A stretch of DNA of 25,785 nucleotides from a virus, in the IMG/VR virus record IMGVR_UViG_3300028393_000305, positions 1 through 25,785 of that record. The stretch is one strand, 5' to 3'. The notes under the pieces were generated by a model. The model was given only the letters and a program-made list of their open reading frames with translations, did not search any database and was not told where the DNA came from. Position 1 is the stretch's first letter. Every line of letters starts with the position of its first letter. Position numbers and translations under genes: made by a program. Positions 1,399 through 14,901 of the stretch are shown one piece after another.

Positions 1399-1473
1399 GA
1401 TCCTAGAGCATGACTGGCTATGCGGGTGTCTCTAAAACATCGAATACGGGTTCAAGTCCCGTTAGGATCACCA
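1399..1473 (+). tRNA. Amber suppressor tRNA (anticodon CTA)
   Basis: All four stems form well: acceptor 1399-1405/1463-1469 (7 of 7), D stem 1408-1411/1420-1423, anticodon stem 1425-1429/1437-1441 (one G-U), T stem 1446-1450/1458-1462. The seven-base loop CTCTAAA puts CTA at 1432-1434, which reads the UAG stop codon. Discriminator A1470, CCA 1471-1473. GG is present in the D loop, but position 8 is G rather than U. The acceptor stem differs from that of tRNA-Asp here by one base pair, yet A73 argues against aspartate charging. The amino acid cannot be read from sequence. Confidence 0.9.
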
Positions 1474-1493
1474 ACTGATAATGGAGTAATAAC

Positions 1494-1532
1494 ATGAAGG
1501 TATTTTTTCTGTAGGTTTTTCGTCCCCCATGA
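1494..1532 (+). other. Mini-ORF with in-frame TAG
   Basis: ATG 1494 follows GGAG at 1483-1486. The 14-nt string GGAGTAATAACATG is identical to the initiation region of the real gene at 22593. The frame runs six codons (MKVFFL) to TAG 1512-1514, then five more (VFRPP) to TGA 1530-1532. It lies directly after the suppressor tRNA and before the promoter at 1542. It may be a leader peptide, a decayed gene start or chance. Confidence 0.3.
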
Positions 1533-1541
1533 ATTTTCTTA

Positions 1542-1570
1542 TTGACTTTGAATAATCACTATCGTATAAT
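1542..1570 (+). promoter_or_regulatory. Sigma70-type promoter
   Basis: TTGACT at 1542-1547 and a perfect TATAAT at 1565-1570 are separated by exactly 17 nt. The start point would be near 1577, just before the gene at 1595. Confidence 0.85.
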
Positions 1571-1594
1571 GTTAACATCAATAAGGAAACCAAC

Positions 1595-2011
1595 ATGTCT
1601 ATCAAGTTAAAGATCAAGTCTAAACATCTCGCATTGGAAGCTGGCGTCATTCGGTTCGAGGAACAGAAACTCAAGCGCCAGATTGAATGGCTCAAGACAC
1701 ACCAAAAGGACGAGACTAAAGTTCGTTTTATGTGGAAGTCATTGAATAGCCATCGTCGTTTTGATGTTCGCAATGAAGCTCGTGCTACTCTTCTCGCTCG
1801 CGCATACATAGAAGGGCGAATTTACAAAACGGTAGAACATTGTCGTAAAGATAATGGTACGTTCAAGACGTATATTTTGCCTCGTATTGTTTCAATGGTC
1901 ATCAAATATGAGCATGGAAAAATTGAAAAGTTTATGAAGCCAGACGATGTAAAAGCCGTGCGCGACGAGGTCGTAGCGTGGCTTGAAGGTCAAGTCTGGG
2001 TTCAAGTATAA
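1595..2011 (+). CDS. Hypothetical protein, basic, 138 aa
   Basis: I do not recognise this family. It is rich in Lys and Arg, with a predicted helical N-terminal half (residues about 10-45) full of charged residues. There are no cysteines in a metal-binding arrangement and no signal peptide or membrane segment. It has its own strong sigma70-type promoter (1542-1570) and an AAGGA ribosome site at 1583-1587, so it is probably expressed early. It ends with TAA 8 nt before tRNA-Tyr, so its transcript may also carry the tRNAs downstream. A nucleic-acid-binding role would fit the charge but is not shown. Confidence 0.75.
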   Translation: MSIKLKIKSKHLALEAGVIRFEEQKLKRQIEWLKTHQKDETKVRFMWKSLNSHRRFDVRNEARATLLARAYIEGRIYKTVEHCRKDNGTFKTYILPRIVSMVIKYEHGKIEKFMKPDDVKAVRDEVVAWLEGQVWVQV

Positions 2012-2576: not shown

Positions 2577-2966
2577 ATGCCAAGAAAACCAAAAGATTTA
2601 TATAAAGAAGATATACGCGATAAACATGTTGGTCATGGAGTTGCTCGATCACCACATTGGTCAACTGTACAGCATAATCATTTAAAACTTGAACCAGCTT
2701 GTGCTGCATGTGGCGGCGGTTTGAATCTTAATGTTCACCATAAAAAACCATTTCACCTATTCCCAGAATTAGAATTAGAACCAACAAACCTAATCACGCT
2801 ATGCATGGATGGCGATAAAGATTGCCATATCAAGTTGGGTCATGGTGGCAATTTCAAAGCATATAATCCAGACGTAGAGGAACATGTGGCTATTGTAAAT
2901 GCAGACTTCACACTTCTAGAAGAATATGCGAAGAAAGCAAAAAAGAATAGGTTGCTAGTCGGATGA
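2577..2966 (+). CDS. HNH endonuclease-type protein
   Basis: A 129-residue protein with the HNH nuclease layout: a C42-x2-C45 zinc knuckle, VHH at 53-55 (catalytic-type histidine), N71 in PTNLITLC, C76, then C83-H84 and H89 in a GHGG turn. The family makes metal-dependent DNA cuts, and free-standing copies often act as homing enzymes in phages. Residues 1-30 are basic and may bind DNA. It starts after GGAGG (2568-2572), part of which lies in a small hairpin. It overlaps the next gene by ATGA. A restriction-type or packaging role is less likely at this size but not excluded. Confidence 0.85.
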   Translation: MPRKPKDLYKEDIRDKHVGHGVARSPHWSTVQHNHLKLEPACAACGGGLNLNVHHKKPFHLFPELELEPTNLITLCMDGDKDCHIKLGHGGNFKAYNPDVEEHVAIVNADFTLLEEYAKKAKKNRLLVG

Positions 2967-3610
2967 AACGCCTCGCTCTTTTTCAACACCATCCTGAATG
3001 TTCCAGGCAATGTTGTGATGGAATTGAGCGAGCATTATCTCCGCAATATGAAGTGAAGCTGTTTACGGTTCAAGATAATCTTGATGAGGTGCTAAATGAT
3101 GTGGATGGAATTGTTTTCCCTGGCGGCATTGGCGACAGTGACAGTTATCACGATTTCTTTACACGTTCTAAAGCTAACAAAGTCGCAGCGTTTCTTGATA
3201 GAGGTGGTAGGTATATCGGCATTTGCATGGGTGCTTATTGGGCTGGTTCTAGATATTTTGACATCCTTGATAAAGTAGATGCGGTTCAATATATCAAGCG
3301 GCCGACTGCTGAGATACGCCGAAGTTATGGCACGGTCGCTGATATTGAATGGCTTGGTCAAAAAGAAAAGATGTTCTTCTATGACGGTTGTGTCTTTACA
3401 GGCACTGGAAAATATGATACTATTGCCAAATATGCTAACGATGAACCGATGGCAATCATTCAAGGCAATCTTGGTTTGATTGGTTGCCATCCTGAGAGCG
3501 AGGAATTTTGGTATGAGAGCCCTTATCAGTATCTTGATGGATATTGGCACGATGGTAAACATCACCAGTTGCTACTAGATTTTGTGAATAGACTTTGGAG
3601 AGTTGGCTGA
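2963..3610 (+). CDS. Class I glutamine-amidotransferase-like protein (BPL_N type)
   Basis: This 215-residue protein has the triad glutamine amidotransferase fold, closest by eye to the biotin-protein-ligase N-terminal domain group. FPGGIGDSDSY at 52-62 forms the oxyanion-side loop. The nucleophile elbow GICMGAY carries C88. CHPESE at 175-180 supplies the H176 and E178 pair. No synthetase partner domain is attached. The reaction is unknown; it could be an amidase, a peptidase-like hydrolase or a modifying enzyme. It is translationally coupled to the HNH gene (ATGA overlap). Its TGA stop at 3608-3610 lies inside tRNA-Ser(GCT), which starts at 3597. Confidence 0.8.
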   Translation: MKRLALFQHHPECSRQCCDGIERALSPQYEVKLFTVQDNLDEVLNDVDGIVFPGGIGDSDSYHDFFTRSKANKVAAFLDRGGRYIGICMGAYWAGSRYFDILDKVDAVQYIKRPTAEIRRSYGTVADIEWLGQKEKMFFYDGCVFTGTGKYDTIAKYANDEPMAIIQGNLGLIGCHPESEEFWYESPYQYLDGYWHDGKHHQLLLDFVNRLWRVG

Positions 3611-6352: not shown

Positions 6353-7537
6353 TCAATATAGCTTGTAACCATAAACGTCTTCGAATTTTTCATTTCGAAT
6401 GGTGTCAAGTGTCTTCGTGAATGAGATGAAAAGGTCTTCTCTTTCAGGTTTCGTTTCAAGCATATGAGCCTTGATAGCAAGAAGCTCCTTCTTGAGAACA
6501 TCAAAATTTGACGGGTGTAGAATTTCTATCGACTTATCAATCTCATTCATAACTCTTGCGCGAAGATCATTGTTTAGGTGTACCCAGTGAAGAGCATACG
6601 GTAGAGTTACCGAATAGCATCTTGTCTGCAAGATTGGGTTGATATCATAAATCTTCATCAAAAACTCAGCTAGATTTGCAAAGTCTAAAAGATTATACGG
6701 GCTGATAGCAATATTATAATGCAAATTCCATAATGGAAGCTTTGAAAATTTTATGAAGTTTTCTTCAACCACATCCCATTTCGTACCTTTTCTATTGTAC
6801 TCAGCAGCTTTCCCAACACCGTCGATGCTCATTACGATTCTAGCTTTTTCAAATTGCATTAACCTATCTATGAAAAGTGGATTCCACACACTGCAATTGG
6901 TAAACATTTCCAATACCACTTTTTTATGATATCCATTTTCAATCATGTGATCCATAAAATCATAGTACTGCTTTATCAGCAATGGTTCTCCACCTGTAAA
7001 ACATACAGTTTTGACATTATCTAATGACAGCTTTTTTAGTTCGTCGAAATTGCTTTCGGACGTGTTTGTGAAATCTCTGAATTTAAATTGTGTGTAGTTT
7101 AAAAGGACTGGGTATTCTTCTACTTCTTTTTGCCATTCAGAACTTGAATCTGCATTACACATTCTGCATTTAAAATTGCAAAGATTGCTCGCTCGCAATT
7201 CGATACGAACGATTTCTGTAGGATCTTCTGCGTTAAAATCTGATGATTGTCTATCTTCTCCTAGTCCATAACCATAGTTCCCAACACCCATCATTCTAAT
7301 TTCACTTTGTCTTGAACTTTTAAGCCCACGCTGTTCTTTTTTCCAACAGACTTCGCAGTTCTTCGGAACTTTTCCTTCTTTCAATTCGCTTTTGATGTTT
7401 GCAAGCCAATCGCTTTGCAAATAATCAATCGGTGACATTGTTTGTTTTTCCAAACTTACATGACACGGCGACGCAGTATTTTCATGGTAGTACAATCCTG
7501 TCCAGGGAGCGGGGCAAAAAAAATCATCGCTTGACAT
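6353..7537 (-). CDS. Radical SAM protein, phage twitch type
   Basis: This 394-residue protein has the radical SAM cluster motif C120-x3-C124-x2-C127 and the SAM-binding TGGEP at 181-185, followed by a TIM-barrel-like core. Four N-terminal cysteines (C8 in CPAPW, C25, and C61-x2-C64) resemble the pattern of phage 'twitch domain' radical SAM proteins and could hold a second Fe-S cluster. The substrate is unknown; such enzymes modify peptides, cofactors or sugars. I chose the ATG at 7537-7535, preceded by GGAG on the minus strand. A longer frame to 7720 would read through the antisense of tRNA-Leu and is rejected. It is the only convincing minus-strand gene and converges on tRNA-Gly. Confidence 0.88.
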   Translation of the reverse strand: MSSDDFFCPAPWTGLYYHENTASPCHVSLEKQTMSPIDYLQSDWLANIKSELKEGKVPKNCEVCWKKEQRGLKSSRQSEIRMMGVGNYGYGLGEDRQSSDFNAEDPTEIVRIELRASNLCNFKCRMCNADSSSEWQKEVEEYPVLLNYTQFKFRDFTNTSESNFDELKKLSLDNVKTVCFTGGEPLLIKQYYDFMDHMIENGYHKKVVLEMFTNCSVWNPLFIDRLMQFEKARIVMSIDGVGKAAEYNRKGTKWDVVEENFIKFSKLPLWNLHYNIAISPYNLLDFANLAEFLMKIYDINPILQTRCYSVTLPYALHWVHLNNDLRARVMNEIDKSIEILHPSNFDVLKKELLAIKAHMLETKPEREDLFISFTKTLDTIRNEKFEDVYGYKLY

Positions 7538-7559
7538 AAATAATCTCCGAGTGTATAAT
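7531..7559 (+). promoter_or_regulatory. Consensus sigma70 promoter
   Basis: Perfect TTGACA (7531-7536), 17-nt spacer, perfect TATAAT (7554-7559), predicted start near 7566. It faces tRNA-Leu(TAA) and the long block to 14211. Its -35 region covers the start codon of the minus-strand radical SAM gene, so the two transcripts would diverge and overlap. Confidence 0.9.
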
Positions 7560-7581
7560 CCTATTCTATATAGTGAGTAAT

Positions 7582-7657
7582 GCCCATGTAGGCCAATGGC
7601 AGAGTCAGGGGACTTAAAATCTCCACAGTGTCGGTTCGAGTCCGACCATGGGCACCA
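7582..7657 (+). tRNA. tRNA-Leu (anticodon TAA), short variable loop
   Basis: Perfect acceptor 7582-7588/7647-7653. Anticodon stem 7608-7612/7620-7624 (one G-U) with TAA at 7615-7617. Perfect T stem 7630-7634/7642-7646. Discriminator A7654, CCA 7655-7657. The variable loop is only 5 nt (7625-7629). Confidence 0.9.
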
Positions 7658-7682
7658 ACTAAATACCAGCATGAGAAAACCA

Positions 7683-8147
7683 ATGAACATTAATGAAGTC
7701 CGTGAATTTATCAGCAACACCTCAGCAACTACAAAAATCTATATCGGTGCAGATTCGAAACGCTACTGTCGCAAAGACGGTAAGTGGATTGCCGACTACA
7801 CGGTAGCGGTTGTTGTTCACTATGATGGCAACAAGGGCTGTAAGGTATTCGGTGATGTGACATCGGAGTTTGATTACGATAAGCGCCATGATCGGCCATC
7901 ATTCCGTTTGATGAATGAAGTCTATCGTGCAGCGAACATGTACCTAGAACTGTATGAAGCAATCGGCGACAGGCATGTGGAAGTCCACCTCGATATCAAT
8001 CCCGATGAAATGCATGGATCAAGCTGCGTTATTCAGCAAGCGACTGGATACATTCGTGGGCTTTGTGGGTTCACACCAAAGGTAAAGCCAGAAGCATTTG
8101 CTGCATCATACGCAGCCGATAGATTGAAGGAGATTCTTGCCACATGA
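7683..8147 (+). CDS. RNase H-fold protein of the YkuK/DUF458 family
   Basis: 154 residues. Family hallmarks are YIGADSK near the N terminus with D24, VHLDIN with D104, the conserved GYIRGLCGF turn, KPEAFAASYAADR at 135-147 ending with D146, and an EFDYDKRHDRPSFRL region. DUF458/YkuK proteins share the RNase H fold; these acidic residues are the likely metal ligands. The biological substrate is not established. I took the ATG at 7683, with GAG at 7673-7675 upstream; an in-frame ATG at 7671 is possible but would have the tRNA CCA end as its leader. It overlaps the next gene by ATGA. Confidence 0.82.
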   Translation: MNINEVREFISNTSATTKIYIGADSKRYCRKDGKWIADYTVAVVVHYDGNKGCKVFGDVTSEFDYDKRHDRPSFRLMNEVYRAANMYLELYEAIGDRHVEVHLDINPDEMHGSSCVIQQATGYIRGLCGFTPKVKPEAFAASYAADRLKEILAT

Positions 8148-8737
8148 GTGTTACAATTGATGATTTTGTTTTGGAATATAATAACTTCCTGACACCTGAA
8201 GAATGTATGGGATACATTGATTGTTATCATCGGTATGAATCAATGGGGCTCACAATTAATCGCCAAGCCTCTGGTGAACCGTCGATTAGAAAAGCTGATG
8301 ACCAGATGTTTGTCACTTCGCTTTTAGCCACAAATGAATTGAATATCTCTGACCTAGAACCGTTTCACTATTTTGTGAAAAAGTTTTGGGATCAAGCGTA
8401 TCCGATTTATCGCCAGAAATATGGTGTGTTGACAGATATAAGTCAACACACCGTTCGCCTCTTGAAAATTCAGAAGACGCATAAGAGCGAAGGCTATCAT
8501 GTTTGGCACTGCGAAGATGGTGACCCAAATGCAATGCGTAGATTAATGACATTCATTCTTTACCTGAACAATATTCCTGATGGTGGTGAGACCGAGTTCC
8601 TCTATTACTCGAAACGATATAAGGCTGAGGCTGGTAAGCTCATTCTATGGCCAGCAGGATATACTCACACGCATCGTGGTAACCCACCACTCAGCAATAC
8701 CAAATATATACTAACTGGATGGGTTGAACTGTCCTAA
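8144..8737 (+). CDS. 2OG-Fe(II) oxygenase, prolyl 4-hydroxylase-like
   Basis: 197 residues with the prolyl-hydroxylase double-stranded beta-helix pattern. YHVWHCE at 117-124 offers the H-x-E/D metal site (H122, E124). NNIPDGGETEF at 142-152 is the classic turn. LWPAGYTHTHRG holds the distal histidine (H175 or H177), and K187 takes the 2-oxoglutarate-binding position. The target could be a peptidyl proline, a sugar or a base. It is coupled to the YkuK gene and followed by a CAT tRNA. Confidence 0.88.
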   Translation: MSVTIDDFVLEYNNFLTPEECMGYIDCYHRYESMGLTINRQASGEPSIRKADDQMFVTSLLATNELNISDLEPFHYFVKKFWDQAYPIYRQKYGVLTDISQHTVRLLKIQKTHKSEGYHVWHCEDGDPNAMRRLMTFILYLNNIPDGGETEFLYYSKRYKAEAGKLILWPAGYTHTHRGNPPLSNTKYILTGWVELS

Positions 8738-8748
8738 CAGATTGCGCT

Positions 8749-8825
8749 GGACGGATAGCATAAATGGAAAATGCCGGTCGCTCATAACGGCCCAGATGTC
8801 GGATCATACCCGGCTCCGTCTACCA
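8749..8825 (+). tRNA. tRNA-Met or tRNA-Ile2 (anticodon CAT)
   Basis: Acceptor 8749-8755/8815-8821 (one G-U). D stem GCA/TGC. Anticodon stem 8776-8780/8788-8792 with CAT at 8783-8785. T stem 8798-8802/8810-8814. The T loop ATCATAC starts with A instead of T. Discriminator A8822, CCA 8823-8825. As the third CAT tRNA here, it is a candidate for the AUA-reading Ile2 type. Confidence 0.85.
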
Positions 8826-8847
8826 CTTATCATTGAAGGAACATCAT

Positions 8848-9468
8848 ATGTCGGACGATGAAGTTTATAGAAGACCTAGTGAAATTCCTTATAAAAATTT
8901 AAATTATCCCGTCGATAAGATCAAGACGATATCGCAAAAATTAAATTTATTTGTCGAACAACATACTGATATTTTGCAGAACCCTATTCGCAAAACACTC
9001 ATATATTCAATAGTGCCAGACTTTGATCTTGTAAATCAGGAAGTTCCGGAACTAAAAAAATTGTGTGATTGGGTAGGAGCTAAACCTATTCGATATATGA
9101 TCTTGCAAATCAAACCAAAACCAGCATGGCATCCAGGACTTGATCCGTATCATATAGATCCAACACCAACGAGAGTTAATCTCTTGTTACCAGTTAGGAA
9201 TTGCGAAGGGTCTATTACCAGATTCGTAGATGTTCCTCCTCGTTTTTTCAAAAAAGTTTGGTTAGAAGATCGACAAAAATATCAATACGATAATTTGTAT
9301 AAAGGGCTTTATCGAGAATTTAAAATTGCTGGCGAATTCGAATTAAATAATGCATATCTATTTAATGCAGGATACCCACATGGCGTATTTTGTAACCCAG
9401 ACATAATAGAGCCTCGAATTTCATTTAATGTTAATTTTGATGATGATGTATCGCATTTGCTAAATTGA
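8848..9468 (+). CDS. Probable 2OG-Fe(II) oxygenase / cupin-like protein
   Basis: 206 residues. The metal-site pattern is H102-x-D104 in YHIDP, followed by a strand with RVNLLLPV. The distal motif is NAGYPHGV with H178, and R190 in PRISFNVNF matches the 2-oxoglutarate-binding arginine. Residues 1-60 are an unrelated AT-rich leader region. The start ATG 8848 follows AAGGA at 8836-8840. The substrate is unknown. It directly precedes the sugar cassette, so a role in glycan tailoring is a reasonable inference. The motif is weaker than in the neighbouring oxygenase. Confidence 0.7.
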   Translation: MSDDEVYRRPSEIPYKNLNYPVDKIKTISQKLNLFVEQHTDILQNPIRKTLIYSIVPDFDLVNQEVPELKKLCDWVGAKPIRYMILQIKPKPAWHPGLDPYHIDPTPTRVNLLLPVRNCEGSITRFVDVPPRFFKKVWLEDRQKYQYDNLYKGLYREFKIAGEFELNNAYLFNAGYPHGVFCNPDIIEPRISFNVNFDDDVSHLLN

Positions 9469-14244: not shown

Positions 14245-14640
14245 ATGGCTATCCTTCCAATCTACTACACCACCACCAATTTTCGCAAACGCAAGGCTTC
14301 GTTGCCCACACGCGCATCCGAGGAGTCTGCTCGTAAAACTGCAGAACTTCTGGCGCGTGTGGGCTACGTCAAACGTGATCGTGCGCCAGTCAAAGCCAAA
14401 GCAGACCAGTGGCAGAATGAGCGCAATGTGGCACCTTTGACAGATGCTATTCCTGGCGGCATTGCAGCCAAGCGCGACAAGCTCAATGACCACAAGTGGA
14501 AGCGTGGGCTTGAAGAGACCAAAGAGACAATCAAAGAAATCCAAAACAAGGCTGCGCGTACTGCACCCGCGTATTCCAAAGGCGCTTACCAGTATATCAC
14601 TGATGGCGCAGATACCAAAACTCTCGGTCGTAAAATCTAG
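14245..14640 (+). CDS. Hypothetical basic protein, 131 aa, ends in TAG
   Basis: Start ATG 14245 with CGGAG at 14234-14238. The protein is basic (pI clearly high), helical in the middle (RASEESARKTAELL, KRGLEETKETIKEIQ) and ends YSKGAYQYITDG. I do not recognise a family. It has its own sigma70 promoter 20 nt upstream. Its stop is TAG 14638-14640, one of two amber stops seen, and the next gene begins in the same frame five codons on. Suppression at this codon would fuse the two into about 218 residues. The TAG also forms part of the AGGAG ribosome site of the next gene. Confidence 0.75.
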   Translation: MAILPIYYTTTNFRKRKASLPTRASEESARKTAELLARVGYVKRDRAPVKAKADQWQNERNVAPLTDAIPGGIAAKRDKLNDHKWKRGLEETKETIKEIQNKAARTAPAYSKGAYQYITDGADTKTLGRKI

Positions 14641-14652
14641 GAGCTATATAAT

Positions 14653-14901
14653 ATGTGGACGAAGCAAGAAATTTTCGAGATGGCGCGTGACGGTGTTATC
14701 CGTGTGACGTTTACCAAGTCTGATGGGACAGAGCGTATTATGGTATGTTCATTGTTGGATCAATATCTTCCTCCTATCATGGAAGATGCGGAAGTAACAA
14801 CGAAGGATAATCCAAATGTTCTCGCAGTGATGGATCTTCAAGCGCGAAGCTGGCGCTCATTTCGAATTAATTCGGTTATTAAAGTGGAGACAATGGAATG
14901 A
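14653..14901 (+). CDS. DUF2693-like small SH3-barrel protein
   Basis: 82 residues. The pattern of an N-terminal helix, VIRVTFTKSDGTERIM, LPP, and then VLAVMDLQARSWRSFRINSV matches the phage DUF2693-type SH3-like barrel family found in T4-like genomes. The function is not established. It starts after AGGAG 14639-14643, which includes the upstream TAG. The same reading frame continues from the upstream ORF. It overlaps the glycosyltransferase gene by ATGA. Confidence 0.8.
   Translation: MWTKQEIFEMARDGVIRVTFTKSDGTERIMVCSLLDQYLPPIMEDAEVTTKDNPNVLAVMDLQARSWRSFRINSVIKVETME

Follow-up and report, generated by a model that had tools for sequence, protein, structure and literature searches.

The window, the complete record of 25,785 bases, is a fragment of its virus. 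It carries an array of tRNA genes: ARAGORN lists 16 and Rfam gives 15 matches. Rfam finds a tRNA at 2470–2542 (41.6 bits) that ARAGORN misses; its anticodon, read by eye, is GAA (Phe), and a tRNA-Phe(gaa) is called by ARAGORN in the corresponding array of the related record G006. Three genes (191–649, 732–1328 and 2963–3610), which encode two 2OG-Fe(II) oxygenases and one GATase/BPL_N-like protein, have their stop codons inside the next tRNA gene (Leu at 640, His at 1314, Ser at 3597), as if gene and tRNA traveled together as a cassette. Arrays of relatives also hold a conserved "tRNA-SeC(tca)" (L086:8210–8287, L101, L017:1849–1926 and L020:2057–2134). Its loop, CTTTCAA, would give UUC (Glu) if read one base earlier, so the caller has probably slipped in register rather than found an opal suppressor.

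Within the array of the window lie a tRNA with a CUA anticodon, a very short open reading frame interrupted by UAG, a predicted hairpin and a gene for a 138-amino-acid protein, all on the same strand (Table 1).

Table 1. Features of the CUA tRNA locus and the basis of each assignment
Feature	Position	Strand	Basis
tRNA with CUA anticodon (1432–1434), predicted amber suppressor, CCA encoded	1399–1473	+	ARAGORN; Rfam; compensatory stem changes in G006
Shine–Dalgarno GGAG of the leader ORF	1483–1486	+	Sequence
Leader ORF MKVFFL-UAG-VFRPP-stop	1494–1532	+	Sequence; same layout in 48 distinct leaders
Predicted hairpin, 5′ arm (anti-Shine–Dalgarno) TTTTCTTATTGA, directly past the leader stop	1534–1545	+	Fold computed on L280, whose sequence is identical
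σ70-like promoter TTGACT-17-TATAAT within the hairpin	1542–1570	+	11/12 consensus matches
Predicted hairpin, 3′ arm TCAATAAGGAAA, with Shine–Dalgarno AAGGA (1583–1587) of the downstream gene	1578–1589	+	Fold
Putatively regulated gene, 138 aa, "SIELKIK" family	1595–2011	+	153 relatives in viral contigs

A conserved tRNA with a CUA anticodon

A reading made from the sequence alone had described this tRNA as having paired stems throughout, an encoded CCA end and a CTA anticodon, and all three points are borne out. ARAGORN calls exactly the same segment with the CTA anticodon, and Rfam model RF00005 matches it with 50.9 bits (E = 2.2e-8), above the gathering score of 29. Read directly, the acceptor (GATCCTA/TAGGATC), D (GCAT/ATGC) and T (ACGGG/CCCGT) stems pair, as does the anticodon stem GGTGT/ACATC around the 7-base loop CTCTAAA. 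Position 73 is A, and position 8 is G where U is usual. The segment is a genuine tRNA with a CUA anticodon, and this anticodon supports the prediction that it serves as a phage-encoded amber suppressor.

The identical 75-base tRNA is present in two IMG/VR records, G001 (106,948 bases) and G004 (29,811 bases). The version in G006 is 87% identical. There the loop CTCTAAA is unchanged, but the anticodon stem is GTCGT/ACGAT, with two pairs altered on both sides. These two compensatory changes around an identical loop indicate that selection maintains a tRNA with a CUA anticodon. A larger relative with a CUA tRNA, G025, has 154,689 bases. Four further relatives (G008, G009, G011 and G012) have large tRNA arrays and no match to the CUA tRNA of the window, and are termed CTA-minus below.

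The name tRNA-Pyl given to such genes is merely ARAGORN's label for a CTA anticodon. CUA tRNAs associated with the leader described below have G1:C72 in 48 of 48 cases and A73 in 39 of 48; we take A73, G1:C72 and U35 to be compatible with lysine identity or with others. Homologs with a sense codon at the position of the stop, which could reveal the inserted residue, were sought, but the candidates merely start later.

UAG remains a stop codon in the genes of these phages

The sequence-only reading had noted that TAG terminates two genes out of about 40, and had taken this scarcity as fitting limited or late readthrough rather than recoding. The count holds, at two of 42 hand-picked genes (TAA, 21; TGA, 19), and one of the two TAG stops, at 649, lies inside the tRNA-Leu gene. 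With gene calls from a purpose-written simple caller, run with codes 11 and 15, TAG ends 2/43 genes in the window, 11/152 in G001, 6/49 in G004, 4/33 in G006 and 17/192 in G025, all of which have the CUA tRNA. The shares are alike in the CTA-minus relatives (G009, 14/217; G012, 11/167; G008, 6/117; G011, 13/103), and so a small number of TAG stops says nothing about the tRNA. The preference for limited readthrough over recoding therefore stands, and the argument from scarce TAG stops falls, because the share is ordinary for the phage family.

A search for in-frame TAG gave no sign of general readthrough of genes. With tblastn, none was found inside homologous alignments when the four CTA-minus proteomes were compared with seven tRNA-bearing records, nor among those seven records themselves. 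Proteins that end at TAG and have an ortholog mostly end at the same residue as orthologs that end at TAA or TGA, although some, with weak matches, are unaligned at the last residue (for example, G001 105207–105428 and G020 7520–8992). Coding density in G001 changes from 0.937 to 0.943 when TAG is turned from stop to sense, which is not a marked rise. Early-TAG genes of at least 50–60 codons are absent from the window, G001, G004, G006 and G025, and neither TAG depletion nor backup stops give a clear signal in tRNA-bearing phages. The TAG shares, the in-frame TAG search and the C-terminal alignments rule out recoding (code 15) of this phage. As judged from these comparisons, UAG stays a stop everywhere tested in this phage family except in the leader.

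One apparent readthrough fusion in the window was also rejected. The TAG at 14640 is followed in frame by 86 codons that take in the next gene (14653–14901), but relatives of the 131-amino-acid protein that ends there stop at the same residue, three CTA-minus relatives with TGA and one with TAG. In G001 and G006 about 350 bp separate these two genes, and hence the window seems to carry a deletion at this point.

These data bear on the possibility that the tRNA acts as a general suppressor, through which many phage genes, perhaps late ones, would be read through to a limited extent or partly recoded. Such a role would agree with the conservation of the tRNA and its CUA anticodon, and long in-frame coding stretches do follow 3 of the 17 TAG-ended genes of G025; yet they also follow 9 of 44 in the four CTA-minus relatives. 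In G001 none of the 11 TAG stops is followed by such a stretch, and the extensions there are short and noncoding. The case at 14640 is not conserved, TAG shares equal those of relatives that lack the tRNA, and G001 (106,948 bases, a record that is possibly incomplete) has no match to an RF-1-domain protein. We regard general suppression as extremely unlikely. A crude survey took the CUA-tRNA loci among the matches listed and dropped 38 of 122 for size (under 4 kb) or because ARAGORN called no CTA tRNA; of the 84 kept, which are short loci, seven show at least five TAG per 1000 codons with TAG as sense.

A stop-interrupted leader follows the tRNA

The leader ORF starts 20 nt past the tRNA and reads ATG AAG GTA TTT TTT CTG TAG GTT TTT CGT CCC CCA TGA, with TAG at 1512–1514, the Pro-Pro codons at 1524–1529 and the final TGA at 1530–1532. 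It is the only TAG motif of this type in the window, G001 and G025. The 99 nt behind the tRNA are identical in the window and G006, although the tRNAs differ. Among the tRNAs compared with that of the window, the nearest were the CTA tRNAs of L114, L122 and L168, each of which precedes an ORF of the same kind (MKEFHS-UAG-IKKPP, MRNYS-UAG-IIRPP and MKRYHL-UAG-ITRPP, respectively). Other CUA loci yielded, among others, MKEFFA-UAG-ITHPP, MKDFRL-UAG-IRPP, MEKLSA-UAG-IRPP, MRNKQL-UAG-QVRGPP and MYKNIFR-UAG-VSRGPP.., and in many loci the start lies 15–25 nt behind the tRNA. Most of these leaders are followed by a homolog of the gene at 1595–2011; in L144 and L188 a different gene follows.

Searches of PHROG and Pfam gave no match above cut-off for the product of the gene at 1595–2011. 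Its AlphaFold2 model is all-helical (pLDDT 91.2), and a PDB fold search with the model gave no match at E ≤ 0.001. Among the fold matches at E above 1 is the helical hairpin of seryl-tRNA synthetase, at best a hint.

Viral contigs were also scanned with a profile of the gene only. The best 80 of the 153 relatives were taken, and 78 of them had at least 200 nt upstream. A CUA tRNA lies within 700 nt upstream in 67 of these 78 loci, mostly 106–126 bases off, and a TAG leader with Pro-Pro is present in 65 of 78. Of the 11 loci in which no CUA tRNA was called, ten nevertheless contain a leader-type ORF; the exception is L311, where the 227 nt upstream hold no leader and no CUA tRNA. L347 has a UCA tRNA, L329 has its CUA tRNA farther upstream, and L324 and L338 have tRNAs that ARAGORN does not name. 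In L332, L334 and L359 the leader-type ORF is present and a CUA tRNA was not found. The anticodon loops of the tRNAs at L324:2742–2817, L338:886–959 and L330:2770–2845 could not be placed by ARAGORN (apparent six-base loops or a shifted CUA); these three tRNAs adjoin intact UAG leaders.

A leader search that was agnostic to the identity of the internal stop but required Pro-Pro found leaders in 66 loci. The loci include near-duplicate contigs, so counts are given as distinct leaders, of which there are 48. The internal stop is TAG in 47, TGA in one and TAA in none. Twelve loci had no leader by this filter, several because it is longer or differently built. Longer early-TAG ORFs that end in PP-stop occur in L290–L293 and L332, and L346 has an upstream ORF ending R-UAG-KVFKPP-stop. 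A scan with the leader pattern alone returned 19 stretches, seven of them already known from the tRNA scan and several others in contigs of the gene scan. The CTA-minus record G009 has one overlapping TAG-PP motif, and some records have single TGA or TAA versions. Single motifs may thus arise by chance; the linkage and covariation do not.

With the isolates and a contig from a bacterial assembly added and duplicates removed, 45 leaders were compared. The stop comes immediately after Pro-Pro in 38; in the other seven, Pro-Pro lies within a longer frame, several times as RGPP, RDPP or RSPP. The residue before Pro-Pro is Arg or Lys in 28. Outside Pro-Pro and the Ile or Val after the internal stop, the peptide is highly variable, and the shortest form is M-UAG-I..PP. 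This variability is relevant to a different reading of the leader, in which the peptide itself is functional, or acts back on the processing of the tRNA or the decay of the transcript, with a secondary part for the hairpin. The 99 identical nucleotides and the start so close behind many tRNAs would fit that reading, but a peptide that varies so widely is better suited to be an arrest tail, and hairpin and gene are conserved along with the leader. We consider a functional peptide very unlikely.

The gene occurs in three of 50,697 phage records, BUCT-ZZ01, DSS3_MAL1 and NCTB. Synechococcus phage BUCT-ZZ01 (host S. elongatus PCC 7942) has a CUA tRNA, the leader MGGDAS-UAG-INLKPP and matching hairpin arms, and DSS3_MAL1 has a CUA tRNA, the leader MKS-UAG-IRPPP and matching arms. 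Phage NCTB has the gene, no tRNA was found within 2.5 kb, and its leader region is built differently. Upstream of position 2486 (L392) it reads ATG TTG AAT AAC TGA, with AGA GGA CCG CCT (RGPP) in another frame, which may represent a form of the switch that is gated by frameshifting. Among 84,980 bacterial and archaeal species genomes there is one relative, on a metagenome-assembled contig with the full module, and the CTA-minus records G008, G009, G011 and G012 have no match to the gene. One record with the CUA-tRNA module, G021 (L223), has beside L196 a 135-amino-acid frame with an RF-1 domain (56.5 bits).

Anticodon and internal stop change together

The sole TGA leader, in L347, reads ATG TTG TGA GTA TAC GCG CCA CCT TAA and stands behind a tRNA to which ARAGORN assigns the anticodon UCA. 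Among 2041 tRNAs, those nearest to this UCA tRNA are mostly CUA tRNAs of the module. TGA still ends 23 of 131 genes in the record, and L347 is therefore not from a recoded phage. A scan for UCA tRNAs gave, among the matches listed, 25 that ARAGORN confirms. By the filter used for the other leaders, a TGA partner accompanies two of them, and no partner with TAG or TAA was seen. One of the two is the leader MKKQKLYEL-UGA-VIEPP-stop of L446, 18 bases past the UCA tRNA and before a gene like that for peptidyl-tRNA hydrolase 2 (PTH2). The other is a PTH2-like gene in L397 that starts MES-UGA-VLDKTYVYVFVRKDLP, where a GTG directly behind the TGA is an alternative start. Only three UCA/TGA pairs were found (L347, L446 and L397); a search via the gene of L347 returned 17 loci, none of them a new and close UCA relative. 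In the sequences at hand, the anticodon matches the interrupting stop, CUA with UAG and UCA with UGA.

A hairpin is predicted to bury the Shine–Dalgarno sequence of the downstream gene

In the minimum-energy fold, the Shine–Dalgarno sequence of the downstream gene is at least half paired in 46 of the 48 distinct leaders (median z = −2.95 versus shuffled loops). For the duplex between arm and Shine–Dalgarno sequence, a leader's own pairing beats 1878 of 1980 foreign pairs over the 45 leaders, and in 45 of 45 the arm is on average stronger than its shuffled self. A toeprint is displaced by about 15–17 bases relative to the first nucleotide of the codon in the P site. By such offsets, a ribosome that terminates at UAG 1512 would leave the 5′ arm free, and one held at Pro-Pro-stop would cover all or most of it. 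The locus has two elements of a SecM-type arrest-peptide translational attenuator: a leader ORF with a ribosome binding site upstream of the gene, and a predicted Shine–Dalgarno-burying hairpin whose 5′ arm an arrested ribosome could reach.

The promoter-like sequence within the hairpin is a point against control by the leader. Shuffles of this region contain 1.6 such sites on average, and a site beyond shuffles (fraction < 0.05) is present in 8 of 45 leaders. A transcript from this promoter would be without the 5′ arm, and thus an unregulated transcript is possible, which complicates the model. If this promoter were what expresses the gene, the leader would be a relic with no regulatory effect. 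The near-consensus site of the window fits such a scheme, but 37 of 45 leaders have no site beyond shuffles. Moreover, an unused stop codon, Pro-Pro and anti-Shine–Dalgarno arm would not persist over such divergence, and the stop codon of a relic would not track the anticodon. A relic leader is hardly credible.

A probable suppressor-gated translational switch

The best explanation that joins the tRNA, its linkage to the interrupted leader and the gene, the match between anticodon and stop, and the conserved hairpin is that the CUA tRNA serves as input to a dedicated, SecM-like translational switch encoded beside it. We hold this to be quite probable. Charging of the tRNA, readthrough, pausing at Pro-Pro, opening of the hairpin and the direction of control (ON) are the steps that we infer. 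A ribosome that starts at 1494 would normally terminate at UAG 1512–1514, too far upstream to reach the hairpin, so that the gene would be off. When the phage CUA tRNA is present and charged, a fraction of ribosomes would read UAG as an amino acid, translate another four to five codons and then pause at Arg-Pro-Pro-stop. A ribosome paused there would cover the 5′ arm, the hairpin could not form, and the gene would be on.

The accounts given in two reports favor such a pause: RxPP and R/HxPP are stalling motifs (PMC10951233), and RAPP and RGPP are robust arrest sequences (PMC12992588). Against arrest, many leaders end in KPP, HPP or other sequences, the stalling strength of which is less documented in these sources. 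The hairpin might instead be opened by slow termination at Pro-Pro-stop, or by a string of ribosomes, with no nascent-chain arrest involved. The frequent placement of Pro-Pro directly before the stop would suit this mechanism, and E. coli termination is described as least efficient after poly-Pro C-termini (review PMC6412442). However, the seven leaders with Pro-Pro in a longer frame fit elongation arrest, and the tight position of the arm suits a ribosome held in place. Slow termination in place of arrest is an unlikely variant of the suppressor-gated switch.

A second layout and other CUA tRNAs

When CUA tRNAs were collected with no selection for the gene, 13 of 102 among the matches listed had a TAG-PP leader, and none had a TGA or TAA version. 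By the same strict definition, a TAG-PP leader adjoins 9 of 497 other tRNAs (Fisher p = 6.6e-6), and three of these nine represent leaders of the module type that were picked up from a neighboring tRNA. Most CUA tRNAs among the matches listed have no recognized partner yet, and no leader of this type adjoins the two CUA tRNAs of phage XacN1.

Some CUA tRNAs are instead accompanied by a second layout, in which a gene of the P0001 family has UAG as its own codon 3–6 behind a good Shine–Dalgarno sequence (ATG NNN TAG ATT GAA...). P0001 is found in 25 of 120 loci of the CUA scan, among the matches listed; 17 are gated, all by TAG, six have a sense start and two are unclear. The proteins, of about 80–200 amino acids, are encoded beside CUA tRNAs in L123, L139, L147, L174, L178, L184, L202, L265 and others, including L272:2977–3222. 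For this family, PHROG gives no match and Pfam only one that falls below cut-off. The family also occurs in G002, a phage record of 518 kb, and in an isolate, Rhizobium phage RHph_I1_18, where an unannotated MSEFM-UAG-NESCREVIFHFNK.. lies just upstream of an annotated tRNA-Pyl(cta). PTH2-like partners recur as well (L188 and L105; by eye also L218, L397 and L446). L188 matches Pfam PTH2 with E = 0.0023, under the curated cut-off, and L105 matches a PHROG annotated "hydrolase" with E = 4.9e-8.

Taken more broadly, suppressor tRNAs of standard-code phages may be regulatory, each the private key of an adjoining stop-interrupted element. Two layouts would then exist, an arrest leader before a SIELKIK or PTH2-like gene and a UAG at codon 3–6 of P0001 or PTH2-like genes themselves, and CUA/UAG and UCA/UGA would change together. 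We judge this generalization likely, if less so than the switch at the present locus.

If true, many phages of water and soil would share a natural genetic circuit that is induced by a nonsense suppressor. Standard-code phages often carry stop-reading tRNAs that have no known target, and the module would supply a defined one. It predicts an inducible switch, and shows how a phage could own a suppressor with no rewriting of its proteome. For synthetic biology it would offer a natural, orthogonal, tRNA-gated translational switch in amber and opal versions, and two isolates, BUCT-ZZ01 and DSS3_MAL1, carry the module.

Comparison with known systems

We found no report of a module of tRNA, leader and hairpin in the open-access literature. 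The nearest natural relative in design is SecM. In the description given in PMC7897499, a stem-loop buries the Shine–Dalgarno sequence of secA, and the stalled ribosome opens it. The phage locus resembles SecM-secA, as presented there and in PMC10951233, in its short upstream ORF, its putative proline-rich arrest motif at the end of that ORF and its predicted Shine–Dalgarno-burying stem-loop. SecM and the RAPP-type leaders ApdA and ApdP sense secretion or membrane insertion; here, by contrast, the motif stands behind an in-frame stop, and the putative arrest motif would be reachable only via a suppressor tRNA encoded next door. For ApcA, ApdA and ApdP, as treated in PMC7897499, no hairpin that buries the Shine–Dalgarno sequence is predicted, unlike for the phage module.

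XacN1 and RsoM2USA (MG752970) are standard-code phages with a CUA tRNA in a large tRNA set, and its target is not known from their descriptions (PMC5852040, PMC8504454). For XacN1, the account in PMC5852040 has the authors reading through 18 amber stops in silico and finding no target. A 2026 paper on jumbo phages treats suppressor tRNAs as recoding tools (PMC13037316). Code 15 phages encode a tRNA with the same anticodon, but there TAG is sense across genes, unlike here.

An engineered parallel also exists. Liu et al. (2011), as summarized in a review (PMC6412442), built a transcriptional switch for an unnatural amino acid from a UAG-interrupted leader peptide. There, too, a TAG lies in a regulatory leader and a tRNA-CUA controls the downstream gene. 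According to that summary, their switch is man-made, of the tna type and acts through transcription termination, whereas the phage module is natural and seems to act on translation initiation.
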